Shown piece by piece: positions 7,045 to 33,522 of a DNA stretch of 33,737 nucleotides. The DNA lies in IMG/VR virus record IMGVR_UViG_3300049912_000046, positions 1 to 33,737 of that record, one strand, 5' to 3'. This stretch comes from a virus. The notes under the pieces were generated by a model. That model had not been told where the DNA came from. It made no database searches and saw nothing but the letters and a program-made list of their open reading frames with translations. Each line of letters begins with the position of its first letter. The stretch's first letter is position 1. Both the position numbers and the translations under genes were made by a program.

Positions 7045-7497
7045 ATGGCTACAGAAAATAGAATTCTCGATATCAGTGCTCCGGCTAACGAGGATCTGAG
7101 CGATTATCAATATCACTTTGTCGTTCGAGATGCCACGGCAAATAAATACAGACTCCCAGATTCCGCGGTTGAGTGGCCGGAAGGGATCCTTCAGAACTCC
7201 CCTGAATCGGGCGAGGCAGCAGTTGTCCGCGTTCTCGGAATTTCGAAGCTCGTAGTCAACGGGGTCCTTGCGGTGGGAGACGTGGTCTCTCCGGAATATG
7301 TCGGTGCAACCGATGCGGGCAAAGGATCGGCCGGAATTCTTGAGACGGCGAGAGGAATCCTCCTGGAGGCTTCAGGCGCAGAGGATGACCTTGTAACATG
7401 CATGTTAACTGACATGCCTGGAGCGTTGGTAGCTTCGTGTGTGATCTCAATGGGCAAAAGTTCCGTGCTTTCGCATGTGACAAGCTCGGCCCACTAA
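7045..7497 (+). CDS. Head decoration protein (DUF2190-like)
   Basis: 150 residues from ATG 7045, preceded by GAGAGGAG. The pattern YHFVVRDATANKYRLPD, then AVVRVLGISKLVVNGVLAVGDVV, GKGSAGILETARGILLEASG and a final beta strand is that of DUF2190-type capsid cement proteins. These are small beta-rich proteins that bind the outside of the capsid after expansion. It lies between the scaffold and major capsid genes, as expected. An upstream in-frame ATG at 6976 would encode the spacer repeat and is unlikely to be used. The protein is cytoplasmic and has no signal. Confidence 0.8.
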   Translation: MATENRILDISAPANEDLSDYQYHFVVRDATANKYRLPDSAVEWPEGILQNSPESGEAAVVRVLGISKLVVNGVLAVGDVVSPEYVGATDAGKGSAGILETARGILLEASGAEDDLVTCMLTDMPGALVASCVISMGKSSVLSHVTSSAH

Positions 7498-7601
7498 GAA
7501 ATAGACGACAGACCGCGGACCTTAGACTTCAGACTAAGGTCTAAGATCTGAGGGTCCGAGTCTGAAGTCAGATGTCTAATTGTCTGAGGTCTGAATTCAT
7601 T
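7498..7601. repeat. GACTTCAGACT / AGTCTGAAGTC palindromic spacer
   Basis: Repetitive spacer built on GGTCTGAGGTCTAAG-like units. GACTTCAGACT and AGTCTGAAGTC are exact inverted copies. It runs directly into the glycosyltransferase start, leaving no clear ribosome site. Confidence 0.7.
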
Positions 7602-8567
7602 ATGAAGATTTCCCACTGGCTTGAGAAAAACATTTCCGGCATGGCAAGGGTGGCTACGGATATGGCCGAAGGCGAAAGGGCGCTCGGTCTCGACTCGAAG
7701 GCCCTTTCCTTTGATGCGAAGGAGCAAGTCACCGAAGGCGTAGATGCCGATATTCATGTCATTCATACTCATCTTCCCGATTCGATCGACGCGAGGAAGG
7801 TGAAAAAGGTTTTGGTTATCCACGGAACGCCCGAGCATATCTTTTATACGGCCGTGGAGGCTGGCCTGGGCCATCACCACGGATTTTCCGATCCGTGGAT
7901 GCAGACCATACACCTGCTCAAAACGTCCGATGCCCTGGTCACATTTTGGCCCCGTCATCAGGCCATCTGGCAGAGCCTTTGCGATGTCGGGCGAAAGGTT
8001 CATCTTATCCCGATGGGAATTAACACCGAATTCTGGAAACCGGTCGAATCTAAAGGCCGGTTTGCCGGCAAGCCCGCCTTGCTTTCGGCGGAGAACTGCT
8101 ATCTCTATAAATGGCCGCTCGATCTGATGATCGCTATCCCCTGGGTTGCCGAGGAGATACCGGATCTGAGGCTTCATCTCTTTCAACTTCCGCTCGATCA
8201 GCATCGCTGGTGGTTTCCTCTGATCGACCGAAATGGAGCCGGATACCATTCCCACGTAAGTGGGATCGCGTATTCCCCGGAGGGGTTAAGAAACGCTTTC
8301 GTCGGGGTCGATTATTATATCGGCCTGGTAAAATACGGCGATCACAATCATATCTGCCTGGAGGCAAAAGCGTCGGGGTGCAAGGTAATTTCCCATCCGG
8401 GGAATCCATACTCCGATTACTGGGTTGACGAGGCAGATCAGCAAATAATGGCAAAACAGCTCATAAAAATTCTACGCGCTGAGGTCGAGCCCAACAAGAC
8501 CGAACCCGTGCCGGCTCTTTTAGAGATGACCAAGGCGATGGTAAAAATCTATGAGTCCATCATTTAA
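7602..8567 (+). CDS. Glycosyltransferase (GT4/GT-B-like)
   Basis: 321 residues from ATG 7602; an in-frame ATG at 7572 lies inside the spacer repeat. The fold reads as GT-B: N-terminal half with DIHVIHTHLPD, KVLVIHGTPEHIF and a SDALVTFWP strand, then the linker VHLIPMGINTEFWKP typical of GT4 enzymes. The C-terminal half has LLSAENCYLYKWPLDLM, LHLFQLP, and CLEAKASGCKVISHPGNPYSDY, which matches the nucleotide-sugar E-x7-E region in modified form. It transfers a sugar from a nucleotide donor to an unknown acceptor. It overlaps the next gene, an acyltransferase. A glycan modification pair inside the head operon could decorate capsid proteins or change host surface sugars. Confidence 0.8.
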   Translation: MKISHWLEKNISGMARVATDMAEGERALGLDSKALSFDAKEQVTEGVDADIHVIHTHLPDSIDARKVKKVLVIHGTPEHIFYTAVEAGLGHHHGFSDPWMQTIHLLKTSDALVTFWPRHQAIWQSLCDVGRKVHLIPMGINTEFWKPVESKGRFAGKPALLSAENCYLYKWPLDLMIAIPWVAEEIPDLRLHLFQLPLDQHRWWFPLIDRNGAGYHSHVSGIAYSPEGLRNAFVGVDYYIGLVKYGDHNHICLEAKASGCKVISHPGNPYSDYWVDEADQQIMAKQLIKILRAEVEPNKTEPVPALLEMTKAMVKIYESII

Positions 8568-14032: not shown

Positions 14033-16192
14033 ATGGTAACCAGAGCAAAGAAGAAACCAAACACCGACGAAATCGCGACTTACCAGAACGATATTACGCA
14101 GTACTACATCGGTCGCGTTCTGATCAATCCCGATACGGTACTTTCGACCGAGGCCGCGGGGCAGGGACTTAAGGTCTATGCGGAACTCGAGCGCGACGAC
14201 CGGGTCTATTCTGAGATGCAGAAGAGAAAGCTTGCCGTTATCGGCAAAGAATGGTCTATCGAGCCTGCAAGCGAAGATACCCAGGATGTCAAGATTGCCG
14301 AATTCGTAGAAAATAATTTTAAAGAAATCAAATTTGACAGGGCTTGCGAGGAGCTCCTCGATGGCATTCTCATGGGTTTTAAGGCTTCCGAGATTATGTG
14401 GGATTATTCCGAAGGGGATATCTGGATCAAGGAATTTCGCGGTCGGGATTCCCGCCGGTTCACATTCGGATTGGAAAATCAATTACGGCTTCTCACCTAT
14501 AAAAACATGCTCGAAGGCGAAGAAGTTCCCGACCGGAAATTTCAACTCTTCCGATTTGGTGAGAAGAATAATAACCCCTTCGGCATGGGCCTCGGGAACA
14601 AACTCTACTGGCCTGTCTGGTTCAAAAAAAACGGCGTCAAGTTCTGGGCCGTATTCTTAGAAAAATTCGGCCAACCCACTCCCTGGGGAAAATACCCGCC
14701 CGGGACCGAAAAGGCCAAACAAGACGATCTTCTCGATTGCCTGAAGGCCATGCAGACCGATCAGGCCATCATCACGCCTGATACGATGATAGTCGAACTC
14801 CTGGAGGCCGCCCGGACGAGCTCAGTCGATAGTTACGAAAAATGGGGAAACTTCTGGAATACCGCCATTACGTTGGTTATCCTCGGCCAGGAGGCCACAA
14901 CCGTAGGGACTCCCGGAAAGCTCGGAGAAGAGACCGCACGTTCCGATGTCCGCCAGGAATATGTCAAGGCCGATGCCGACCGCCTCTCCGAATGGCTCAA
15001 CGATCAATCGATCAGATGGATCGTCGATTACAATTTTCCGAATGTCAAAAAATATCCAAAATTCTGGAAGGAGGTCGAACCGCCTGAGGATCTCGAAAAA
15101 CTTTCTAAGGTTCACCAGGTCATTCTGCCGATGCTTGATGATGTACCAATGAAATTCATCCATGATACCTATTCGATTCCGATGCCGGAAGGAGACGAGC
15201 CGGTTCTTATCCAGAAGGCGGCCCCAACGCCCTTCGGGTTCGCTGAAAATAGGAAGATGCGAAGATACGAAGGTGCGAAGATGCGAAGATACGAAGATAA
15301 GAAGATAAGAAGCTGCGAAGATTCAAACCTTCATAACTTCACAACTTCCCATCTTCACAACTTCTCATCTTCTTTCCTCGAAGCCGACTGGGTATCTGAA
15401 TACATGAAAAATCTCGCACCCTCCCTCGGTGCGCTGAAGAAAGATGCACTCAGTAAGATCGAGGGATGGCTTCGTAATCAGTCCTCGCCGCCCTCGGAAG
15501 AAGAATTTACCTCGGCCATCAAAGGGATCCTCGGCGATGCCTACAAAAATATCGATAAGATTGCCGTAACCGAATCCGTCGGCGCGATCTACCAGGCATA
15601 TAAAGCCATAGAAGGTTTGACGGCGACAGTTGGCTTCGAAGGTGCGGATATTCGTGCGATCAACTTCCTCTCGAATCTCGATCACTTTTATCTTTCAAAA
15701 TTTATTGACAATCCCGATGCCCAGGCAGCTCTCATGGATTTCTTAAAAACCCGCTACCTCGAGGGAGGCGAAGGACTTTTTGGGGCAGGCGATCCGAAAG
15801 CGATCGCAGAGCTGAAAAACCTTCTCTCCCAGCAAATGACAGATCTCGAGGGATACCAGATCAATCGGATCGTGGACACGGGAGTCGTCCGGATCCAGAA
15901 CTGGAGCCATATATCTCAACTCCATGATGCCGCAATCGCTGAAATCGAAATCATCGAACCGACCCAGGAGTGCGCCTTCTGCGCCATGATGAACGGCAAA
16001 ATCATCCAGGTCGACGTCGCCTATAAAAATATGATGGACCAGGCGAACATGACCCCGGATGAATACCAGACCTTCCTCGGGGAGAACCAGAGCATCCTGG
16101 AAAATATTCAGAATTATGTGGATCAGGGGCTTTTGCCTCCTTATCATCCGCACTGCCGCGGGACGATTGTAATGAGGACAACTAACCAGTGA
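14033..16192 (+). CDS. Portal protein fused to MuF head-morphogenesis protein (DUF935 + MuF)
   Basis: 719 residues. Residues 1-400 match Mu gp29/DUF935 portals: KRKLAVIGKEWSIEPAS, CEELLDGILMGFKASEIMW, FGMGLGNKLYWPVWFKKNG and WFKKNGVKFWAVFLEKFG. It forms the dodecameric ring through which DNA enters. Residues about 448-719 are a MuF domain ending in ECAFCAMMNGKII and PPYHPHCRGTIV, with the family's Cys/His cluster. It binds the inside of the portal and is packaged in the capsid. Between the two, residues about 406-447 are encoded by a palindromic spacer of the GAAGATGCGAAG type. In Mu these are two genes, so either the spacer served as the join of an old gene boundary or it entered a natural fusion. 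Confidence 0.9.
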   Translation: MVTRAKKKPNTDEIATYQNDITQYYIGRVLINPDTVLSTEAAGQGLKVYAELERDDRVYSEMQKRKLAVIGKEWSIEPASEDTQDVKIAEFVENNFKEIKFDRACEELLDGILMGFKASEIMWDYSEGDIWIKEFRGRDSRRFTFGLENQLRLLTYKNMLEGEEVPDRKFQLFRFGEKNNNPFGMGLGNKLYWPVWFKKNGVKFWAVFLEKFGQPTPWGKYPPGTEKAKQDDLLDCLKAMQTDQAIITPDTMIVELLEAARTSSVDSYEKWGNFWNTAITLVILGQEATTVGTPGKLGEETARSDVRQEYVKADADRLSEWLNDQSIRWIVDYNFPNVKKYPKFWKEVEPPEDLEKLSKVHQVILPMLDDVPMKFIHDTYSIPMPEGDEPVLIQKAAPTPFGFAENRKMRRYEGAKMRRYEDKKIRSCEDSNLHNFTTSHLHNFSSSFLEADWVSEYMKNLAPSLGALKKDALSKIEGWLRNQSSPPSEEEFTSAIKGILGDAYKNIDKIAVTESVGAIYQAYKAIEGLTATVGFEGADIRAINFLSNLDHFYLSKFIDNPDAQAALMDFLKTRYLEGGEGLFGAGDPKAIAELKNLLSQQMTDLEGYQINRIVDTGVVRIQNWSHISQLHDAAIAEIEIIEPTQECAFCAMMNGKIIQVDVAYKNMMDQANMTPDEYQTFLGENQSILENIQNYVDQGLLPPYHPHCRGTIVMRTTNQ
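15250..15375. repeat. GAAGATGCGAAG / CTTCATAACTTC palindromic spacer inside the portal-MuF gene
   Basis: 126 nt (42 codons), with left arm units AAGATGCGAAGATACGAAG and right arm units CTTCATAACTTCACAACTTC. It is the same family as the intergenic copies at 9974, 10918, 13090 and 13944, but here read as protein (RKMRRYEGAKMRRYED, then SHLHNFSSSF). It lies exactly between the portal and MuF domains. Confidence 0.9.
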
Positions 16193-23284: not shown

Positions 23285-25195
23285 GTGAAGTTGAGATTCT
23301 GGAAAAGAAAACCCAAATATGAAGTCAGGCTCCCGATCGGAAGGCGACGGGATATTGTCCTTCATGAGCCGATATCGGGAATAATTTCGGGAATCTCGGC
23401 TTGGCTCTCGACATCGATTGGGGTGGCCGGAATCACGGTAGGCGGGATGATAAAGACCGTTCTTATCGTCGCTGCTATCGGGTCCTCCATCTGGTCAGCC
23501 ATTAAGAAACCATCCTCCCAAAACAGTATCGAAAATAACGGAATGCTAATAAACACAAAGTCGTCATCCGAACCCGTCAAGATTATCTATGGCCAGGTCA
23601 AGGTCGGGGGAAACTGGGATTTTTACGAGCCCACGAGGGAAAACAATGAGTATTTTAATGTCGTCATAGACTGGGGCGAGGGAGAGATCGAGGGGACCGG
23701 GTTAGGGGTCGATTTCAATCCTCTATTTTCGGGCTCTGGTAGGAACGACCTTCAGCCGGGGGGAGAATTCTCAAATACCAGTTGCACCTGCAATAATACT
23801 TGCTATGAATACCAGCCCTGCAGCTGCAATCAAACCTTATATTTATATGAAGGAAAAGGCTCGTGCGCCTGCTATTTCGAATGTTACAACTATCAGGGTT
23901 GCAGCTGCGATCAGGCGTGTTACGTTAACGGGGAATTTCAATTCAAAGTACAAATCGATGGGACCGGAACGCCGGACACATTCAAATGGTCAGACGATGG
24001 AGGGTCGACCTGGAAAGCGACCGGCGTGCCGATAACAGGCGAGGATCAAAGTTTGGAATATAATATAATCGTGACATTCGGTGCGACGACAGGACACACG
24101 CTCAATGACTTCTGGTTATTTTGGGCGGGGGAAGGTGTCTGGATCGGAGATCGCCTTCTCTACTACTATACTCATTATGGGGGACTCAATCTCGCTTCTC
24201 ATGAATTGATGAAAGGGACGTCTGATCAGGATGTGCTTGCCTCCCTTCAGGCCGAGTGGCCGGCCTGGAATGAGGCAATGCAGCACACGGCCTATTCTTA
24301 TTTCAGGCTGATTTATAATCAGGACGCCTTCAATTCCGTGCCCGAGTTCACAATAATCTTGAAGGGAAGAAAATTATATGACCCGAGAAACGGGGCGACG
24401 GTTTGGAGCAGGAATCCCGCCCTTGTCTGGCGGGACTTTCTCACAAGCATAAGATATGGGTTAGGATTCGACCCCTCCAAAATAGATGATCAGAGCGTCA
24501 AGGATGCAGCGAACTGGTTCGACCAGGAGGATTATCATTTCGATGGGGTCGTGATGGATCGCCAGTCTTTTCTTGATAACATGGAAGAGGTTCTTGCCAA
24601 CATGCGCGCCTTCGTCATCCGGACCGGGGGCATCTACAAGCTTAAAATATTTACGGACGATGCCCCAGTAATGATACTCTCAGCCGATGACGTGGAAGGT
24701 GCGGCCGAATCATTCTACCTTAGCCAGGCGGGAATTCCGGAGACCCCTTACAAAGTGAAGGGAATTTTTGCCGACAAAGAACATAATTATACGACAAATT
24801 ATGCCTATAGCGAAAATACGCAAATGATATCTATCACCGGAGACACCAAGCAGATTGAGATTCCCCTCATAGGAACCACAAGTATGGAACAGGCGTTGAA
24901 ACTCGTGGAATACTTCAGGAAGAGAGCTGCGGTCAATATGGAATTCCATATCCTCTGCCATCCTCGATTCATTGCGGCCGAAGTCGGAGATATGATCCTT
25001 CTGAACCACGAATTTCTTAACATGTTCCCGGAGATCATCACATCCTCCGATCGGGATTCGGTTATAACAGAGAATGGGGATATTCTTGTCTCCTCGCTTA
25101 ATATGAAGAAGGTGCGCGTCAAAGATATCGGGTTGCCCCAGGAGGGGATGGTTCCAATCACCTTCATGGATGAGCAAACGGCCATCTATTCTTGA
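23285..25195 (+). CDS. Tail tip attachment protein (lambda gpJ-like) with 11-cysteine insert
   Basis: 636 residues, GTG start with GGAG upstream; the preceding 14 bp duplicate the end of the previous gene. The N-terminus has a hydrophobic stretch (GIISGISAWLSTSIGVAGI, TVLIVAAIGSSIW) as in gpI/gpJ-type proteins. Residues about 94-130 read SEPVKIIYGQVKVGGNWDFY, a gpJ hallmark, and later parts include FNSVPEFTIILKGRKLYDP and WRDFLTSIRYGLG, both typical of gpJ/DUF1983-type tips. Residues 167-212 form an unusual insert with 11 cysteines in two units (CTCNNTCYEYQPCSCNQ and CACYFECYNYQGCSCDQ). The tip contacts the host receptor. The insert is either metal-bound, cross-linked or chemically modified. 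Confidence 0.87.
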   Translation: MKLRFWKRKPKYEVRLPIGRRRDIVLHEPISGIISGISAWLSTSIGVAGITVGGMIKTVLIVAAIGSSIWSAIKKPSSQNSIENNGMLINTKSSSEPVKIIYGQVKVGGNWDFYEPTRENNEYFNVVIDWGEGEIEGTGLGVDFNPLFSGSGRNDLQPGGEFSNTSCTCNNTCYEYQPCSCNQTLYLYEGKGSCACYFECYNYQGCSCDQACYVNGEFQFKVQIDGTGTPDTFKWSDDGGSTWKATGVPITGEDQSLEYNIIVTFGATTGHTLNDFWLFWAGEGVWIGDRLLYYYTHYGGLNLASHELMKGTSDQDVLASLQAEWPAWNEAMQHTAYSYFRLIYNQDAFNSVPEFTIILKGRKLYDPRNGATVWSRNPALVWRDFLTSIRYGLGFDPSKIDDQSVKDAANWFDQEDYHFDGVVMDRQSFLDNMEEVLANMRAFVIRTGGIYKLKIFTDDAPVMILSADDVEGAAESFYLSQAGIPETPYKVKGIFADKEHNYTTNYAYSENTQMISITGDTKQIEIPLIGTTSMEQALKLVEYFRKRAAVNMEFHILCHPRFIAAEVGDMILLNHEFLNMFPEIITSSDRDSVITENGDILVSSLNMKKVRVKDIGLPQEGMVPITFMDEQTAIYS

Positions 25196-25202
25196 GCAAA
25201 AA

Positions 25203-28200
25203 ATGGGAAAAATAACCATCCACGAACTTCCGGAAGAATTAGAGCCCACCTTGAGCGATCTCCTGGTGTTGGATGCCGAGAGAGATGATTATTGGTATAC
25301 GAAGAAAGTCACTCTTGAAAACTTCATGGATTTCTTAGGTTCTTCCTACTTTGAACCTGCCATTTCTCAAGGGACACCTGATCAATACTGGAGAGGAGAT
25401 AAGAGCTGGCGGACTTTGAAGCAGTCGGTAGTAGACGATTTAATGGAAACAGACAGTCCGGCATTCGTCTCAATCCGGCTTTCCGCCTTGACTGACGGCT
25501 ATTTCCCTTATCACGCCAGCGATGTTGCCGGATTGGTGAATAGCCCGCTTTATACGGATGGGACTAACATCGGTATTGGTATGACTCCATCGGCCAAATT
25601 GGATGTCGATGGATTCATTCGTTCTCTTGGTTACCCAAGGGTGCCAACCAGCGGAGCAGGATTGGAGGTTTCATATAATCCAACTGCATCCCGTGGATAT
25701 TTAACAGCGGCCGATAGGACAAATTCTCTTTACAAAGAACTAAGCATTAACGGTCTTATACTCACATTGAATTCATATAGCGGAGGCAACGTCCTCGTCG
25801 GGACGAATACCGATTTAGGATATAAACTCAATGTCAATGGAACAGGATATTTTGCAACCTCATTGGCTACCCCAACGATAAAGTTATCAACCGGCGCAGC
25901 TGCAAATTTTTTCTGGATGTCCACCGGCATAGATGGATCGGGCGCCTGGACAGCGATTGCAGCCTCACAGGTTTATAAAGGGATCTGGCTTGCTTCTACC
26001 AATACCCCAACCCTGGCAGACGGAACGGGAACGGTCGGGTGGTATTATCGTGCGGTAGATGCTGGAACAGTTGATTTTGGACACGGGGGCATAGCCTTCG
26101 TAGCTGGGGATGATTGCTATTATAGCGGCACTCTTTGGCAGAAAATACCTGGAATTGGCTACACCCTACAGACCGCAACCGCCTCGGTGTTAGGAGGTAT
26201 AAAAGTAGGTGGAAGCCTCCAGATTGACGCCGGGACCGGGATTTTGAACATAAATAATGCCGATATGGGAGATATAACCGTATCCGGAACAGGTTCGGAT
26301 ATTGGAAAAATTTGGACGATTGACAATAACGTCGTTACTTTTGCTAAATTTCAACAGATTGCCACGGCATCACTTCTTGGCCGGGCTACAAGTGGAATCG
26401 GAAATGTTGAAAATCTTACTGATATTCCAACCGGGATCACCATTGGAAGTCAGTATATTTACAGGGTGGGTGGAACCGACGTATCGATAGCCGATGGCGG
26501 CACAGGGGCATCCTCTCTGGCCGCTGGCTATCTGCCTTATAGCAGTGGTGGAACTGCTTATGCTGCTTCTCCAATCTTTACGGATGGAACCAACCTCGGT
26601 ATCGGTGTCGTTCCCAAGGCTTGGGATTCATTAACTGGGATGGAGATTGGAGGATCAGGCTCGGGGATTTCTGGAAATCTTGGAGGATTCTATCTCGGTA
26701 CGGGATTCTATTACGCTACCGGCTGGAAATATGCGATTGCCGATATTGCGATTGGGAAATATCAGATATCTCTCGGCGCTCACACGTGGAGTATAGCCCC
26801 ACCCGGAATAGTAGGCAATGCAATTTCCTGGACCGACGCATTAACTTTAAATGCCAACGGCTACTTCGGCGTCAACACCATTACTCCCCGCCGCCGAGTA
26901 GATATCTTATATGCTTCTGCCCCCCAGCTTAGGCTTACCCAAACAGACAATTCCGTCTACACTGATTTTCAGACTGATTCCAGTGGAAATCTTATCCTTA
27001 CTCCTACCGGTGGAATAGTTAAGACAACCGGTATTCAGGTCAAAACCCCCTGGTGCGATGTCAGATTATTTGCAGGAGGTCACTTTAACGGAACGGAAAA
27101 TGATGCTCCAGCAATCGAGGCCGCAATAACGGCGGGCTACAAAAGATTGTTTTTGCCCAATCTTACGCTATGGATTCCGACGGCTAATTCCATCGCGGCA
27201 GATCTCGAAATCATCGGTGAGAGCTGGACAGGCGTCGTGATAAAGGCATCGAACCCGGCCACGGAATACATCTCTATCGGCGCCAGAACAATTCTCCACG
27301 CCGTCTCGATATTCGACAAATCGGGAGTAGACCAGGGACTATCCCCGAATGTGGCGAGGCCCGTTCGATGGTATGCCAATAACCGCGCAAGCAGCTATCC
27401 GGTTACCTCCTGGTTCAATCAAAATATGGTCATCGAAACTGGGGAAACCGGATACGACCGCCCCGCCTTCGGTGTGAACAATTATGGAATCGGCGATGCT
27501 TTTTGGGCAGGAGTGAAAGGGGATTATGGAATAGGGTATAGAGTGGATGTAGGACCTTCTCCCAATGAGGCTGTTCCAAATGCCATCGGCCATTATATTA
27601 TCAACTGGGGTCAAGGCCGTGGAATATTTGCAGTAGGAAAAGCAGGAAGCACTGGGGTTATAGCCCAGATCTCTGCTGAAGCCAATGTGCAAAGCCTTAA
27701 CCTTTACGATATTTCTTCAACTACGCAGAGCACTTTTCAATCGATTTCTTTTGGAAAAACTTCAGGAAACATTTTCAACATATATCATCAAAATTCCGCT
27801 ATGACCGGCCATGCCTTCATAATGAACATGGGCAATAACGGGGGCAGTTTTACAGGATATTTTTGGGATTTAAAAGTTGCAGGAGTTTCAAAATTCGTCA
27901 TAGAAGCAGATGGTCATCTTTACACCGCCTCATCTACTGTAGTGGCTAATTTAAATGCCGATCTCTGGGATGGATATCAGTTTGCAAGTTATTTAGATCA
28001 GGCAGTTAAACAAGCCTCCTCCCCGACCTTTGCCGGAGGCTTCCTGACCAATAATTTGCTCTTTAACAATAACATCGGTGTCAGGGGAAAAACCACCGGC
28101 GGAGTATCCATACAGCTTGCCGGCATGGGGAGCGATGATAAAGTTTATCTCGGTGCCGATGCCCCAACCGATATACTTATTGGCACCGGCGCCGGTTCTA

Positions 28201-28280
28201 CGAATCCGATATACATCAAGGTAGGAGGAGCCCAAAAAAACGTTCAAATAGACGCCAACGGGTTCCTAAAAGGAGCATAG
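25203..28280 (+). CDS. Tail fibre / receptor-binding protein
   Basis: 1025 residues from ATG 25203; ATG 25170 is also in frame and would overlap the tip gene. The start MGKITIHELPEELEPTLSD then KKVTLENFMDFLG is the usual capsid-side anchor of siphophage fibres. Repeated fibre modules follow: two TDGTN-GIG units (about 116-125 and 459-468), VSIADGGTGASSLAAGYLPY, and a parallel beta-helix domain at about 618 onwards (CDVRLFAGGHFNGTENDAPA then IEAAITAGYKRLFLPN), which often binds or cuts sugars. It ends with repeated trimer-like strands. No C-terminal chaperone or fibre-assembly protein was recognised. It binds the receptor, probably a surface polysaccharide. Confidence 0.87.
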   Translation: MGKITIHELPEELEPTLSDLLVLDAERDDYWYTKKVTLENFMDFLGSSYFEPAISQGTPDQYWRGDKSWRTLKQSVVDDLMETDSPAFVSIRLSALTDGYFPYHASDVAGLVNSPLYTDGTNIGIGMTPSAKLDVDGFIRSLGYPRVPTSGAGLEVSYNPTASRGYLTAADRTNSLYKELSINGLILTLNSYSGGNVLVGTNTDLGYKLNVNGTGYFATSLATPTIKLSTGAAANFFWMSTGIDGSGAWTAIAASQVYKGIWLASTNTPTLADGTGTVGWYYRAVDAGTVDFGHGGIAFVAGDDCYYSGTLWQKIPGIGYTLQTATASVLGGIKVGGSLQIDAGTGILNINNADMGDITVSGTGSDIGKIWTIDNNVVTFAKFQQIATASLLGRATSGIGNVENLTDIPTGITIGSQYIYRVGGTDVSIADGGTGASSLAAGYLPYSSGGTAYAASPIFTDGTNLGIGVVPKAWDSLTGMEIGGSGSGISGNLGGFYLGTGFYYATGWKYAIADIAIGKYQISLGAHTWSIAPPGIVGNAISWTDALTLNANGYFGVNTITPRRRVDILYASAPQLRLTQTDNSVYTDFQTDSSGNLILTPTGGIVKTTGIQVKTPWCDVRLFAGGHFNGTENDAPAIEAAITAGYKRLFLPNLTLWIPTANSIAADLEIIGESWTGVVIKASNPATEYISIGARTILHAVSIFDKSGVDQGLSPNVARPVRWYANNRASSYPVTSWFNQNMVIETGETGYDRPAFGVNNYGIGDAFWAGVKGDYGIGYRVDVGPSPNEAVPNAIGHYIINWGQGRGIFAVGKAGSTGVIAQISAEANVQSLNLYDISSTTQSTFQSISFGKTSGNIFNIYHQNSAMTGHAFIMNMGNNGGSFTGYFWDLKVAGVSKFVIEADGHLYTASSTVVANLNADLWDGYQFASYLDQAVKQASSPTFAGGFLTNNLLFNNNIGVRGKTTGGVSIQLAGMGSDDKVYLGADAPTDILIGTGAGSTNPIYIKVGGAQKNVQIDANGFLKGA

Positions 28281-28874
28281 ATGAAAATCAAAAGATTTGA
28301 ACTATTCAGAATGAAACAAGTTATTGAAGATATGCCGAAAGGGGACAAGTTCAAGTTCGCTTACGCGGCCACTAAAAATTTAAGGAAAATCAAATCTGAG
28401 ATCGACGATATGCAGAGCACCATTGAGCCAGATTCGGAGTTCCGGGAATATGATAAAGAACGTCAAGAGGTCTGTAAAAAATTTGCCAGGATTGAAAATG
28501 GAGAACCGGCGAAGAAAAGGATTACGAATCCTGATGGATCCTTTGCTTTCGTATTCGAAATCGATGAGAAGAAAAAGAGAGAGTTCAATGAGGAACTTAA
28601 GAAATTGAAGAGCAAATATAAGGAAGTCATATCATCGCAGGAGAAGAAAATTGAAAACTTTAATTTGGAAATGAGAAAGATGGTTGATATCGATTTCCAT
28701 CGCGTGAGCTGCGAGGATCTGCCCACCGAGATGGTGGAGATCCAAGAAGAGGAGGATGGAAGACCAAAAAAGGAAAGCAGACTGGCATTGACCCCCAATC
28801 AGATGGAGGCGATCCTCGACTGGATTGAATTCCCTGATGAAGAAAAGAAGATCATCAAAACAAAAAGGGCATAG
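28281..28874 (+). CDS. Coiled-coil protein after the fibre gene
   Basis: 197 residues starting on the base after the fibre stop. Highly charged and helical: residues about 22-80 and 98-130 are coiled-coil-like (NLRKIKSEIDDMQSTI, RQEVCKKFARIENGEPAKK, EFNEELKKLKSKYKEVISSQ). The C-terminal part has DLPTEMVEIQEEEDGRP and LTPNQMEAILDWIEFPDEE. Family unknown. It may be a fibre-assembly helper, or it may belong to the cassette downstream, from which it is separated by only 9 bp. No Cys cluster or signal. I would not assign function. Confidence 0.65.
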   Translation: MKIKRFELFRMKQVIEDMPKGDKFKFAYAATKNLRKIKSEIDDMQSTIEPDSEFREYDKERQEVCKKFARIENGEPAKKRITNPDGSFAFVFEIDEKKKREFNEELKKLKSKYKEVISSQEKKIENFNLEMRKMVDIDFHRVSCEDLPTEMVEIQEEEDGRPKKESRLALTPNQMEAILDWIEFPDEEKKIIKTKRA

Positions 28875-28883
28875 GACCAAATA

Positions 28884-30029
28884 ATGCAATTATACCCGAT
28901 TACCAATGCGACCCTAAACCTTACCCAGGCATGTAATCTCGCCTGTTCGTATTGCTTTACCGGCGGCAAGGCGGGCAAAAGACTTCATCTATCGATGGGG
29001 AAAAGGATCATAGACTTTCTTTTTAAGAATGCCCTCGAGGGAAACCGGAAACGGATTGAGGTCTCTTTTTGGGGAGGGGAGCCCCTGTTAGAATGGGATC
29101 TTATCAAGGAATTGATACGCTATGCCGAATTCAAGAGAAAGTGGTTTGGCGTGAATGTCGGGTTTGGCGGGACGACGAACGGCACACTTTTGACTGAGGA
29201 AAAAATCAGATACCTTGCCGACCACAGAGCCTTCTTCATGATATCTTTGGATGGCACCCCGGAATCACACAATAAATTCAGAATCTTCCATAATGGTGAT
29301 GGATCCCAATCAACAATCATGAGGAATGTCGAAAAGGCATTGAAGATATGGCCCAAACTGAAAGTCAGGATGTCCCCTTATGCAGGGGGGATCCATAGAT
29401 TTCATGAGGATATCCGGTATTTGGCGAGACATGGACTCTATAACATAATGTTTTCCCCGGTCTACGAATCAGGCTGGACCGAGGACCATTGGAAAATCTG
29501 GGAAAGCGAATGCCTCAAGACGATCGACTTCTTGGCATTCATGAAGAGTCACGGCATTCGAATCGACATCGAGCATTTCAAATCTTATCGAGGGTCAGAC
29601 AAAAGCCACTGGCCCTGCGGGGCAGGAAGGTTTTATGTTGGATTTGATATTGATGGATCCTTCTATCCATGCCATAGGTTCTGCAAATTCAGTGATCAGA
29701 GGCCCTGGAATGAAAAGCCGATGATTCTCGGCCATATAGATTATGGGATCACATCGAAGGGATTGAGAGATCAATTCATCCATTTTTATCCTGATGATTG
29801 CAAAAAGAAAGAATGTTTTGAACGGACGCCCTGTCATGGCGGCTGTTTTGGTGTCAATTATGACATGATGGGGGATATATGGAAGGCCCCCCCGCAGCTC
29901 TGCCGATACGTGGAAATGCAAAGAAGAATCTCCAAATATTATGCCCAAAAGATCGAAAACCACGATGGTGCTGCAGAGCCGAAACCCTGCACCTGTAACT
30001 TTGAATTTTATTGCGGGCCAACAGCATGA
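28884..30029 (+). CDS. Radical SAM/SPASM protein 1 (peptide-modifying type)
   Basis: 381 residues. The radical SAM motif CNLACSYC (C17, C21, C24) sits at the usual place, with FWGGEPLLEW (SAM-binding GGE), FGGTTNGTLL and FMISLDG. The C-terminal half is a SPASM domain: CGAGRFYVGFDIDGSFYPCH, then CKF, C-x5-C, CHGGCFG and CRYVEM, which bind auxiliary iron-sulfur clusters. Proteins of this build modify peptides or proteins (sactipeptide maturases, anaerobic sulfatase maturases) by radical chemistry. Beyond the SPASM part, about 25 extra residues end in PKPCTCNFEFYCGPTA, resembling the CTCN units of the tail-tip insert. The stop overlaps the nucleotidyltransferase start by ATGA, so they are coupled. 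Oxygen-free growth of the host is implied. Confidence 0.9.
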   Translation: MQLYPITNATLNLTQACNLACSYCFTGGKAGKRLHLSMGKRIIDFLFKNALEGNRKRIEVSFWGGEPLLEWDLIKELIRYAEFKRKWFGVNVGFGGTTNGTLLTEEKIRYLADHRAFFMISLDGTPESHNKFRIFHNGDGSQSTIMRNVEKALKIWPKLKVRMSPYAGGIHRFHEDIRYLARHGLYNIMFSPVYESGWTEDHWKIWESECLKTIDFLAFMKSHGIRIDIEHFKSYRGSDKSHWPCGAGRFYVGFDIDGSFYPCHRFCKFSDQRPWNEKPMILGHIDYGITSKGLRDQFIHFYPDDCKKKECFERTPCHGGCFGVNYDMMGDIWKAPPQLCRYVEMQRRISKYYAQKIENHDGAAEPKPCTCNFEFYCGPTA

Positions 30030-30775
30030 AAATTCTTGTTCCAATGTCGGGTCATACCAAAGGCCTCCACGATGGCCATAGAGCGCTTATAGCCTATGCG
30101 CAGACGCTCGGGGATGCCACCATTAGGATCTTGCCGGATTACGGGAAAACGCTCCTGTATGCCCGCACAGGCCTTAAATTTCCTGGAACCGAGAATGTAT
30201 CGAAGCAGATCAACGATCTGGAAGCGGCCGGGATTAAATGGGAAATGAAAGGCCCTCTATTTACGTCGGAATCCAGGAGGAGAGAGGCTCAAAATAAGGC
30301 ATGGAAAATCCTGTTACCCATTGCAGAAAAACTGCTGATCCAAAGATATGTTGATCTTGTTTTATCGATGCTGACAATGAAATTCCTAAGCGATGAGAGG
30401 CATGAATACGATCTCATCGCAAGGGGCCCCGAGATCCCTCTTTTTTTCATGGGGCATGTAGGAGACGCGGCCCGAAGAACAAAATCGATATTCTTGAAGG
30501 AAATAATCAAAGATGAAAACGGTCTAAAGCTTGGATCGATTGCGATTGGAGATGAGGGACCGAACATCCAAAAAGCGATTGGCCAAGTTAAATGTTTTCT
30601 AAAACCGGGAAGGAATAGCGACCTCATTCGTGAGATCAATCAATCGATCTCAGAGAATTGGAAAATGGAAGACGCCCTTCTCTTTGAAGGAGATTTTATT
30701 CCAGGCAGAGCCGAGGTCTTTTCATTCAGACTTCCAGATGGAAGGCTTTTTGAGGATTGCACATTCTATGCCTAA
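30026..30775 (+). CDS. HxGH nucleotidyltransferase-like protein (PanC-type fold)
   Basis: 249 residues from ATG 30026; the upstream TTG at 30011 is less likely. The start MKILVPMSGHTKGLHDGHRA gives the H-x-G-H pair (H15, H18) of the PanC/cytidylyltransferase superfamily, which activates a carboxylate or phosphate with ATP or CTP. Compared with pantothenate synthetase (about 280 residues), the early helix and H-x-G-H agree, but later PanC signatures are not obvious. Substrate unknown: it could adenylylate an acid for the ligase or acyl-transfer step of the cassette. Coupled at both ends: ATGA with the radical SAM gene and an 8-bp overlap with the next gene. Confidence 0.72.
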   Translation: MKILVPMSGHTKGLHDGHRALIAYAQTLGDATIRILPDYGKTLLYARTGLKFPGTENVSKQINDLEAAGIKWEMKGPLFTSESRRREAQNKAWKILLPIAEKLLIQRYVDLVLSMLTMKFLSDERHEYDLIARGPEIPLFFMGHVGDAARRTKSIFLKEIIKDENGLKLGSIAIGDEGPNIQKAIGQVKCFLKPGRNSDLIREINQSISENWKMEDALLFEGDFIPGRAEVFSFRLPDGRLFEDCTFYA

Positions 30776-31511
30776 AATTGAGAGTATGTTATCAGATGGA
30801 TTATCCGAGTTTGACAGGCTGATACCAGAGGGCGGCATCTGTGTTTATCCTGAAGTCTGGTATTTCGATGTGAACGACATTCCTATTAAGGAAAGAATTT
30901 CATCGAAAAGATTTTTCAGGGAAGACCCGGATTATAGAAGGCTTTACGATCACAGGAATCTTATTTTTAAAGGGGAGAAAACAGGGAGGAGGTTCTGTGC
31001 CTACATCTACAGGGATTTGGAGGCCGTCGGGAATATTGTTTTCACCGAAGTGATTGATAATCCCCACGGGTTTGGAAAGAATGACTTCAGCTATCACAAA
31101 TGGATATTCCCCAAATACAGGAAAACAAAATATTCGAGATACGCCATCTCCGATCTCATCCATATGCTTTTTATCTCCGGAATCGCCAGGAGAATCTATG
31201 TTTATACCCTTGCACGGAAGGATAGCGAGGGGCATCCTCTATGGGAAAGAATAGATTTCAGCCTTCCATGCGCCAGCATTATCTATGACTCGGACGGGCC
31301 GGAAACTCAAAAATATATTTTCCTAAAACAAGAATTTCAGACTCCTTGGGCCACCTATCTGCTTCTGGAATTCAATGGGGATATTTACCGAAGCATGGAT
31401 TTAAAAAAATATTTCATGGCTGCTCCCGGCCGGGACGAGAAGATCGTCGAGCGTTGGCTCAAGGAAATGAATGAGGCGGCCGATGAAGTGGGGAGGGTAA
31501 TGAATGGTTGA
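30768..31511 (+). CDS. Possible GNAT-like acyltransferase in the radical SAM cassette
   Basis: 247 residues from ATG 30768, which overlaps the upstream stop by 8 bp. The frame runs further upstream, to 30630, but that part is shared with the previous gene. The middle reads NIVFTEVIDNPHGFGKNDFS, then HKWIFPKYRKTKYSRYAISDLIHML, then RRIYVYTLARKDSEGHPLWERI, the order of strands and helices of GNAT enzymes, with a degenerate acetyl-CoA loop. Later parts (FLKQEFQTPWATYLLLEFNG) are unassigned. The family call is weak. Whatever its reaction, its coupling to two radical SAM genes and a nucleotidyltransferase implies one pathway. Confidence 0.5.
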   Translation: MPKIESMLSDGLSEFDRLIPEGGICVYPEVWYFDVNDIPIKERISSKRFFREDPDYRRLYDHRNLIFKGEKTGRRFCAYIYRDLEAVGNIVFTEVIDNPHGFGKNDFSYHKWIFPKYRKTKYSRYAISDLIHMLFISGIARRIYVYTLARKDSEGHPLWERIDFSLPCASIIYDSDGPETQKYIFLKQEFQTPWATYLLLEFNGDIYRSMDLKKYFMAAPGRDEKIVERWLKEMNEAADEVGRVMNG

Positions 31512-32511
31512 TCCCCTCCACATCAACATTTATATGACCGCAGAATGCAATCGAGAATGCCCCCAATGCTATTATCCTGATGGAAAAGGGAAGATGACCG
31601 TTAAGATGTCTGAAAAAATAAGTCTCTGGATCTGCGATCTCATGAGAAATGGCAATGTTCCAGAATATAGAATCCATTTTCTCGGAGGCGAACCACTGCT
31701 TAATCGTCATCCGATGCTCAAAATCGTCGATATCGTAAATGCAAACAAACCCGACCTTTCAAATCCGGCTCCTGAAGGCGGTTTCGTAGTTTTTACAAAT
31801 GGGGATTTTCTGAGCAATACAACACTAAAGATGTTAAAAAGGCGCAACATTAAAATCCTTCTTAATCCGACAAATAACCCCTTGTGCGAAATCGAAAAAA
31901 GAATTTTAAAGATAAAAAAAATCTGTCGTGGCTGCAGTCTTGCAATTGTGCTTGACGAATTCAACATGCCACGCCTCCCGCAGCTTACGGAATTGGCCGT
32001 CCAGTACGGCTGCCATATGCGGGTAAATCGACTCTATCATGGAGGGACGATTCCCGGATACGTTGATGAATATGAAAAACAAATGGGCAAGATGTTTGAA
32101 ATTCTTCTCGGTGCCGAAAGATCGATGTGGCCCAATTTTATCATGGAATCAATGACGGTCACATGGCCAGGACCCAAAAATCCTAATGCCTGCGGCCGCT
32201 GGTTTCTTGTGGTGGATCCGGATGGTACGGTCCGTAGTTGTAATGCCGACATGGAGACGGTGATCGGGCATATCTCGACTCACAGGAGCATAAGGGATTT
32301 CAAATTCCCGCAGCGATGGAGCGCCAAGAATCTTTCCGAATGCCAAGGATGCGAATGGATCATGTGGTGCCAAGGAGGATGTCCTTATACGAGGAAATTA
32401 ACTTATGGAACCTATGGGAAAAGGACCCCTTTTTGCGGGGCCTTTAAAAAATTATTTCCCATGCTTTTTGAACTAAAAAACCGATGGCTTAAACAACAAA
32501 AAAAGTTGTGA
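31504..32511 (+). CDS. Radical SAM/SPASM protein 2
   Basis: 335 residues, overlapping the previous gene by 8 bp. Radical SAM motif CNRECPQC (C15, C19, C22), then FLGGEPLLNRHP (GGE), VVFTNGDFLS and MRVNRLYHGGTIPG. The C-terminal SPASM-like part has CGRWFLVVDPDGTVRSCN, then SECQGCEWIMWCQGGCPYTR and a final C. It belongs to the same broad group as radical SAM protein 1 but is not a duplicate: N-terminus and Cys spacings differ. Two distinct maturases in one cassette suggest two modifications on one substrate, or two substrates. The stop codon lies inside the left flanking repeat of the Dam gene. Confidence 0.9.
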   Translation: MVDPLHINIYMTAECNRECPQCYYPDGKGKMTVKMSEKISLWICDLMRNGNVPEYRIHFLGGEPLLNRHPMLKIVDIVNANKPDLSNPAPEGGFVVFTNGDFLSNTTLKMLKRRNIKILLNPTNNPLCEIEKRILKIKKICRGCSLAIVLDEFNMPRLPQLTELAVQYGCHMRVNRLYHGGTIPGYVDEYEKQMGKMFEILLGAERSMWPNFIMESMTVTWPGPKNPNACGRWFLVVDPDGTVRSCNADMETVIGHISTHRSIRDFKFPQRWSAKNLSECQGCEWIMWCQGGCPYTRKLTYGTYGKRTPFCGAFKKLFPMLFELKNRWLKQQKKL

Positions 32512-32543
32512 AAGCCATTCACAAGCTTTTCACAAACAGATTG
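32500..32543. repeat. Direct repeat A left of the Dam gene
   Basis: AAAAGTTGTGAAA, then a variable part, then CTTTTCACAAACAGATT. The TTGTGAAA (32506-32513) and TTTTCACAA (32527-32535) arms also form an inverted repeat. Repeat B at 33475-33522 is similar over about 45 bp. Confidence 0.75.
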
Positions 32544-32710: not shown

Positions 32711-33478
32711 ATGAGAAGTTTATTAGCCTATCCGGGAGGAAAACATCTTTTAGCCGGAAAGATCGTTCCGAAAATACCGCCTCACACCTGTTACTGTGAG
32801 GTCTTTGCAGGTGCGGCCTGGGTGCTATTTACAAAAGAGGAATCAAAGGTGGAGATCCTAAACGATATCAACACGGACCTGGTGACCCTTTACCGTGTAG
32901 TCAAATATCACCTTGAGGAATTCATTCGTTATTTAAAATGGATTCTTGTAGCCAGGGACGAATTTGAGAGATTTAAAAAAGAGGACCCTGAAACGCTTAC
33001 CGACATCCAGCGAGCCGTCAGATTCTATTTTTTACTAAAGGCAGGGTACTCGAGTAAAGTGAAAAGGCCGACTTTTGGCATTTCGGCGCAGAGGCCTCCT
33101 CGCTTAAACTTACTGCGAATTGAAGAGGATCTCTCGATGGTTCATCTCCGTTTGGCACGCGTATATATTGAAAACAAACCCTATGGGGAAGTAATCGCCT
33201 GTTTTGATAAACCGGGAACATTCTTCTATCTTGATCCTCCTTACTATGGGTATGAGAAAGACTATGGCGACGGAATATTTTTCAGAGAAGACTTTCAAAA
33301 ATTAAGGGACATCCTATCGATGATCCGGGGGAAATTTCTTCTATCGATCAATGATCACCCAAAAACGCGAGAGCTATTTAAGGAATTTCGGATCTCCAGG
33401 GAAAAGACGATTTACACGGCAGGATACGGTCATTCACCGCACAAAACAGTGACCGAATTATTGATATCGAACTATTAA
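32711..33478 (+). CDS. DNA adenine methyltransferase (Dam/D12 class)
   Basis: 255 residues; GGGAGG lies 8 bases upstream. Motifs of D12-class N6-adenine methyltransferases in order: LLAYPGGKHLLAGKIVPKIP (SAM site), CEVFAGAAWVLF, ILNDINTDLVTLYRVVKYH, then the catalytic DPPY (residues 175-178) in FYLDPPYYGYEKDYG, FLLSINDHPKTRELF and ELLISNY at the end. It transfers a methyl group from SAM to adenine in a short site, probably GATC by family habit, though this cannot be read here. In a phage it can protect the genome from host restriction or time packaging. It stands alone: flanked by imperfect direct repeats, with its own structured leader and a terminator. It looks like an inserted single-gene cassette. 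Confidence 0.93.
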   Translation: MRSLLAYPGGKHLLAGKIVPKIPPHTCYCEVFAGAAWVLFTKEESKVEILNDINTDLVTLYRVVKYHLEEFIRYLKWILVARDEFERFKKEDPETLTDIQRAVRFYFLLKAGYSSKVKRPTFGISAQRPPRLNLLRIEEDLSMVHLRLARVYIENKPYGEVIACFDKPGTFFYLDPPYYGYEKDYGDGIFFREDFQKLRDILSMIRGKFLLSINDHPKTRELFKEFRISREKTIYTAGYGHSPHKTVTELLISNY

Positions 33479-33522
33479 AAAGATTGTGAAATAGGCGTTA
33501 CAAACTTTTCACAAGCAGATTA
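33475..33522. repeat. Direct repeat B right of the Dam gene
   Basis: AAAAAGATTGTGAAATAGG, then ACTTTTCACAAGCAGATT. It aligns with repeat A over about 45 bp and again has TTGTGAAA/TTTTCACAA arms. Its left end is the last codons of the methyltransferase gene. Confidence 0.75.

Follow-up and report, generated by a model that had tools for sequence, protein, structure and literature searches.

A radical SAM gene cassette in tailed phages, its link to cysteine-repeat domains in tail proteins, and a likely role in their maturation

The 33,737-nt virus record IMGVR_UViG_3300049912_000046 from IMG/VR, which we analyzed over its full length (33.7 kb; hereafter, the window), has the layout of a long-tailed phage: genes for the large terminase (4187), the portal (14033), and the tape measure (19200) are followed by minor tail proteins, a J-like protein (23285), and a fiber (25170). 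Behind them lies a four-gene cassette (28884-32511) that encodes, in this order, a radical S-adenosylmethionine (SAM) enzyme (rSAM1), an HxGH nucleotidyltransferase (NTase)-like protein, a GNAT, and a second radical SAM enzyme (rSAM2). An initial annotation had described these genes as chained by overlaps of 4, 8, and 8 bp directly after the tail fiber region. The gene coordinates and overlaps agree exactly, and the genes for J, the fiber, and a coiled-coil-like open reading frame (ORF; 28281) do precede the cassette. In stating that no classical precursor peptide is visible nearby, however, the annotation overlooked a Cys-rich block within J. The features at the locus are as follows:

23285..25195, + strand: J-like central tail-tip/host-specificity protein, 636 amino acids, the proposed substrate; PHROG 31 'central tail fiber J', E=5e-35

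23783..23920, + strand: Cys-repeat block within J, CTCNNTCYEYQPCSCNQTLYLYEGKGSCACYFECYNYQGCSCDQAC, holding 11 of the 12 Cys of J

25170..28280, + strand: tail fiber/minor tail protein, 1036 amino acids, 2 Cys; PHROG 13892 minor tail protein, E=2e-10

28281..28874, + strand: coiled-coil-like ORF, 197 amino acids, directly upstream of the cassette

28884..30029, + strand: rSAM1, radical SAM/SPASM protein of the ranthipeptide-maturase type, 381 amino acids; Pfam Radical_SAM, E=4e-18; C-terminal substrate-like motif CTCNFEFYCGP

30026..30775, + strand: HxGH (GLHDGH) NTase-like protein, 249 amino acids, probable HUP/HIGH fold; conserved H15, G17, H18

30768..31511, + strand: GNAT-fold acyltransferase, 247 amino acids; AlphaFold model and Foldseek

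31504..32511, + strand: rSAM2, second radical SAM/SPASM protein, 335 amino acids; TIGR04085 SPASM, E=5e-12

The 11 Cys of the block in J (gene at 23285..25195, + strand) fall within 46 residues (167-212) and are arranged as C-x-C-[ND]-x-x-C-Y units. For each of the remaining tail-module proteins of the window in which Cys were counted, the total is 1-8. We first met this motif in L006 and L007, viral contigs that have an rSAM2 homologue and that each encode a Cys-repeat protein, for example CSCNATCYGYTACSCNSTCYGY. A set of 124 units drawn from 13 proteins gives the consensus C-[ST]-C-[ND]-x-[TS]-C-Y-G-[YQ]-x-A, with Cys at positions 1 and 3 in 100% of units, Asn or Asp at position 4 in 93%, Cys at position 7 in 93%, and Tyr at position 8 in 82%. 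The units are spaced by 12 residues in 59 cases and by 11 in 24, and one protein has 25 strict units.

The proteins that carry these repeats are varied. They include J proteins (the window and G031), C1q/fiber-like proteins (G004, with G005 and G009 assigned by sequence similarity), and a baseplate-like protein (G011), as well as short stand-alone Cys proteins of 132-204 amino acids (G002, G006, and G007) and a 70-amino-acid open frame in G035; several of the short proteins share a KYAPxxWLFY-like end. The J of the window is 55% identical to that of L106/G031, which has the same motif at the same position. Distant J homologues (L233-L235; 23%) have no Cys block, and their contigs showed no cassette homologue, a pattern weakly consistent with a link between the two. 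Because two adjacent paralogues of the N-terminal region in G005 lack the Cys domain, this domain is a modular insertion. The G005 Cys domain itself (L095:10301-11293) is built of a 35-residue higher-order repeat (12+12+11), which shows up in L018 as a 105-bp spacing of the pattern hits.

We then converted the motif into a degenerate DNA pattern and scanned IMG/VR with it. Among the 32 matching contigs, 13 encode a true in-frame repeat protein (12 by filter, plus L038); setting aside the two that defined the motif, the sister of the window (99.86% identical), and one of a near-identical pair leaves nine independent contigs. All nine encode an rSAM1 homologue (35-62% identity), as compared with 0 of the 19 chance-match contigs (Fisher p=1.4e-7); the total length is 684 kb for the chance-match contigs versus 483 kb for the true-repeat contigs. 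L038 began as a control and was reassigned to the test group once its sequence had been inspected; if it is left in the control group, the counts become 8/8 versus 1/20.

We also sought the four-gene order in other phages and found it in four, G001, G004, G005, and G009, where the proteins are divergent (26-52% identity) and the repeat gene lies on the same strand, 4-5 kb from rSAM1. Because the whole order recurs in this way, the cassette is not a chance assembly. Elsewhere the repeat gene is closer still, 33 bp from rSAM1 in G007, about 5 bp away in G035, and overlapping it by 4 bp in G031. G001 has two rSAM1 genes, two rSAM2 genes, and two Cys-repeat ORFs, which suggests that enzyme sets and substrates were duplicated together. 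Homologues of rSAM2, 42-55% identical, occur in five other Cys-repeat contigs. rSAM1 is the common element, and the NTase and GNAT are optional accessories.

Both radical SAM proteins carry the CxxxCxxC and SPASM-type Cys sets that the initial annotation had ascribed to them. rSAM1 scores 66 bits against PF04055 (cut-off 29.5) and has its CX3CX2C motif at C17/C21/C24, which identifies it as a radical SAM protein. Its seven SPASM-type Cys (C245-x12-G258-x4-C263, then C306, C311, C317, C321, and C340) are invariant in nine homologues, except C311. In addition, many rSAM1 homologues end in a motif-like tail, for example CICYNMCYAEGTDQEI...CVCYNAQYNGP (G001) and CTCYNMCYSEGT...CLCNATSYNGP (G036); the window enzyme ends in CTCNFEFYCGP, and the tails of several proteins follow patterns such as CxCYNMCYxEGT...CxCYNxxYxGP. 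These motif copies tie the enzyme to the repeats independently of gene neighborhood. The tail could be a segment that the enzyme modifies on itself, or it could serve as a pseudosubstrate or bind a metal. In G035, an intein is apparently inserted before the SPASM region of rSAM1 (L223, ORF from 1449; CLTGDTSV...FVHNC), and the 917-amino-acid rSAM1 ORF of G008 (L099:2287-5040) is probably interrupted in the same way.

rSAM2 has C15-C19-C22 and scores 21.5 bits against PF04055 (E=2.8e-4), under the cut-off; it passes Fer4_12 and, as a SPASM-type protein, TIGR04085 (46 bits versus a cut-off of 27). The third gene product, described earlier as GNAT-like, has the GNAT fold, since its AlphaFold model (predicted local distance difference test score, pLDDT, 86.1; predicted template modeling score 0.85) matches GNATs with a Foldseek probability of 1.00 (E=1e-5) and a VIA Z of up to 12.4. 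The HxGH motif of the remaining protein, reported in the initial annotation, is present and is largely conserved across five homologues; its placement in the HUP/HIGH superfamily is weak, depending on a faint profile match (A3) to phosphopantetheine adenylyltransferase 3do8 (E=8e-4) and on a model of modest quality (pLDDT 63) with a VIA Z of 5.7 to TyrRS and 5.2 to PanC. Its best Foldseek matches are not significant, and Z values of about 5 are too low to assign a reaction. Searched against 50,697 phage and 72,556 plasmid records, it gave no match.

The nearest families of rSAM1 (PapB, SCIFF, QhpD, CcpM, and CXXX-repeat) act on Cys-containing peptides or proteins. PapB joins Cys to Asp or Glu through thioethers and accepts varied spacing as well as nested links (PMC9413430), and the length of rSAM1 is near that of the PapB profile NF047865, which all nine aligned homologues also match. 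Like the PapB substrate PapA, the phage proteins have repeated Cys motifs (PMC9413430); unlike PapA, the substrate proposed here is a repeat domain inside phage tail proteins, and rSAM1 stands beside a second radical SAM enzyme, a GNAT, and an HxGH protein. QhpD installs three Cys-to-Asp/Glu thioethers in a structural subunit, QhpC, that is kept in the final protein (PMC7876137), and rSAM1 matches its profile TIGR03906 with E=9e-46; QhpC, in contrast, is non-viral and is not described as a tandem repeat. The SCIFF maturase CteB likewise acts on a Cys-rich substrate, and its structure 5wgg is the closest solved structure to the rSAM1 profile (A1; E=2e-54), whereas the substrate of CteB is a small precursor peptide.

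An independent, analogous pairing occurs in cultured Campylobacter phages of the genus Firehammervirus (CP220, CPt10, F379, and relatives), which encode a SPASM-type radical SAM enzyme about 25% identical to rSAM1. This gene has a partner in 15/15 records: a CxCN-repeat protein is encoded no more than a few kb away, between tail genes. The repeat protein (534 amino acids; F379_160 at L147:2461-4065, corresponding to CPT_0180 in CP220) contains CDCNYCT heptads plus further CxC[ND] motifs; in this it differs from the window, as it does in that no NTase/GNAT cassette was seen in the annotated stretch. The 21-bp repeat within CPT_0180 and the abundance of radical SAM genes were both reported for CP220, without being linked, and a metabolic role was suggested for the latter; CPT_0180 is absent from the 11 identified gel bands of the CP220 virion (PMC2853527). 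The repeat and radical SAM pair of these phages is a cultivable system. Our literature search, partial in coverage, found no paper linking phage tail Cys repeats to radical SAM enzymes.

We consider it likely that the cassette matures proteins, acting on Cys-repeat domains of tail-associated proteins that the phage itself encodes, in this case J. That rSAM1 modifies the Cys repeats is the part we hold with most confidence, and the modified repeats are probably displayed on the virion. Because the nearest families PapB and QhpD make thioethers, we propose the same chemistry for rSAM1, although on this analogy the product is only somewhat favored to be a thioether. rSAM1 would dock on the C-x-C-[ND]-x-[TS]-C-Y repeats and use one SAM-derived radical per site to form an intrachain thioether (C-S) link from a repeat Cys to a nearby residue, as in ranthipeptide or QhpD-like chemistry; the acceptor could be the Asn/Asp at position 4, the Thr/Ser at position 6, or the Tyr at position 8. 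Such links would leave the tip or fiber domain covalently stapled and resistant to both reduction and proteolysis. The remaining three enzymes (rSAM2, the GNAT, and the HxGH protein) would act on the same substrate, either assisting rSAM1 or adding a second modification, perhaps through a radical step followed by acyl or nucleotidyl activation and transfer. The initial annotation had offered modification of a tail protein as one option. The association of the repeats with rSAM1 strongly supports it and supplies the J Cys repeats as a specific candidate target, so that an earlier guess becomes a well-supported enzyme-substrate assignment from which we infer the modification itself.

Several observations weigh against this assignment. 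The best NCBIfam match of rSAM1 is PapB NF047865, at 218.1 bits versus a cut-off of 340, and the remaining equivalog cut-offs all exceed its score as well: 156.5/425 bits for SCIFF (TIGR03974), 156.5/453 for QhpD (TIGR03906, far below), 149.3/500 for CcpM, and 136.7/350 for CXXX-repeat. The CX3D/E acceptor found in PapA is missing from the repeat consensus. Among the repeat proteins, several have no recognized tail domain, those of G001, G003, and G008 having no recognized domain at all. One motif-defining contig, G006, has GNAT and rSAM2 next to the repeat gene and no rSAM1 in 37.7 kb, the sole exception among all repeat contigs. When we searched in reverse with the rSAM1 profile (70 loci), five close-homologue contigs appeared that the repeat pattern had not picked, and a Cys-repeat ORF is found in two of them (G035 and G037) and not in G033 (40 of 42 kb read), G034, or G036 (16-17 kb fragments). 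The repeat thus predicts the enzyme strongly, and the enzyme predicts the repeat less well. Finally, what the sequences show directly is the genes with their folds or superfamilies, the repeats and where in tail proteins they sit, and the linkage between repeats and rSAM1; the chemistry and its biological role are inferred.

An unlikely alternative is that the repeats are disulfide-bonded or bind a metal or Fe-S cluster, while the radical SAM enzymes act elsewhere and travel with them through shared phage ecology. Three Cys per 12 residues could indeed bind metal or form disulfides, and the latter are plausible in extracellular-type tail proteins such as these; this explanation, however, does not account for the almost exclusive pairing of the repeats with a single SPASM subfamily, for the apparent co-duplication, or for the motif copy in the enzyme tail. 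We regard as slightly less likely again that the repeat proteins are precursors resembling ribosomally synthesized and post-translationally modified peptides, with the modified peptide serving, once released or injected, as a toxin, a bacteriocin, or a factor in superinfection. The short stand-alone Cys proteins (and the G035 frame), with their conserved ends, fit such a role, but J, C1q-like, or baseplate proteins enclose the repeats in the window, G031, G004, G005, G009, and G011, and no leader, cleavage site, exporter, or protease gene was recognized for the repeat proteins.

Least probable, in our estimate, is that the cassette makes a small molecule or modifies DNA or nucleotides as auxiliary metabolism unconnected with tail proteins. 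Metabolite pathways commonly include HxGH nucleotidyltransferases and GNATs, and a D12 adenine methyltransferase gene follows at 32711; yet both radical SAM proteins have SPASM-type domains typical of peptide or protein maturases, and the cassette tracks the Cys repeats, being absent along with them from the distant J contigs. The small molecule released on infection that the initial annotation had suggested received no direct support. Nor did we retain the host metabolic operon that it had named as a contrary outcome: a scan of about 85,000 prokaryote genomes, made with the repeat pattern and not with the cassette genes, gave low-complexity artefacts and no true repeat.

Cross-links made by radical SAM enzymes are known mostly in small peptides, with a few protein examples such as QhpC. 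Maturation by radical SAM/SPASM enzymes is of a known kind, and tail repeat domains would be a substrate class new to it. Looking beyond the window, we lean toward the view that several tailed-phage lineages use a dedicated multi-enzyme radical-SAM system to cross-link Cys-repeat domains of the tip, fiber, or baseplate covalently, with the NTase, GNAT, and rSAM2 adding a second chemical group and more distant radical SAM enzymes paired likewise with other CxC-rich phage proteins, a new class of virion post-translational modification. The presence of the enzyme-and-repeat pair in many phages suggests that these viruses chemically reinforce part of the tail. If true, this would be a new use of radical-SAM cross-linking, on large repeat domains of the viral attachment apparatus, and would suggest a role for some unexplained phage radical-SAM genes, including those long noted as abundant in Campylobacter phages. 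It would also provide long tandem substrates for enzymology and peptide engineering, and it makes a directly testable claim about how some phages stabilize or arm their tails.

More distant radical SAM loci lie near other CxC-rich phage ORFs (L173, L175, L199, L201/L202, and L216), an uncontrolled observation. The same-strand ORFs are at L173:11905-12780, L201:2454-3191, L216:4150-4440 and 7112-7657, L175:6368-7165, and L199:8439-9049 and 14513-14878; they include NCNCNC tails, a CKCKCK block before a WSDEKLKTDI chaperone-like domain, and CNYCTC heptads, possibly further classes of the same logic. A tblastn search of the phage collection with the repeat peptide gave no match, possibly from low-complexity filtering. 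Matches of 30% identity in 'Bacteriophage sp.' human-faecal records were not used; several have a SCIFF-type CQTSCQSACKTSC peptide by the radical SAM gene and are probably bacterial. The records L145, L148, and L149 carry SCIFF-type peptide loci and look like bacterial contigs mislabeled as phage. Rfam gave no match anywhere in the window. Downstream of the cassette, the D12 methyltransferase gene (32711-33478) is bracketed by short direct repeats, CTTTTCACAA[AG]CAGATT, at 32526-32542 and 33505-33521, like a small inserted cassette.

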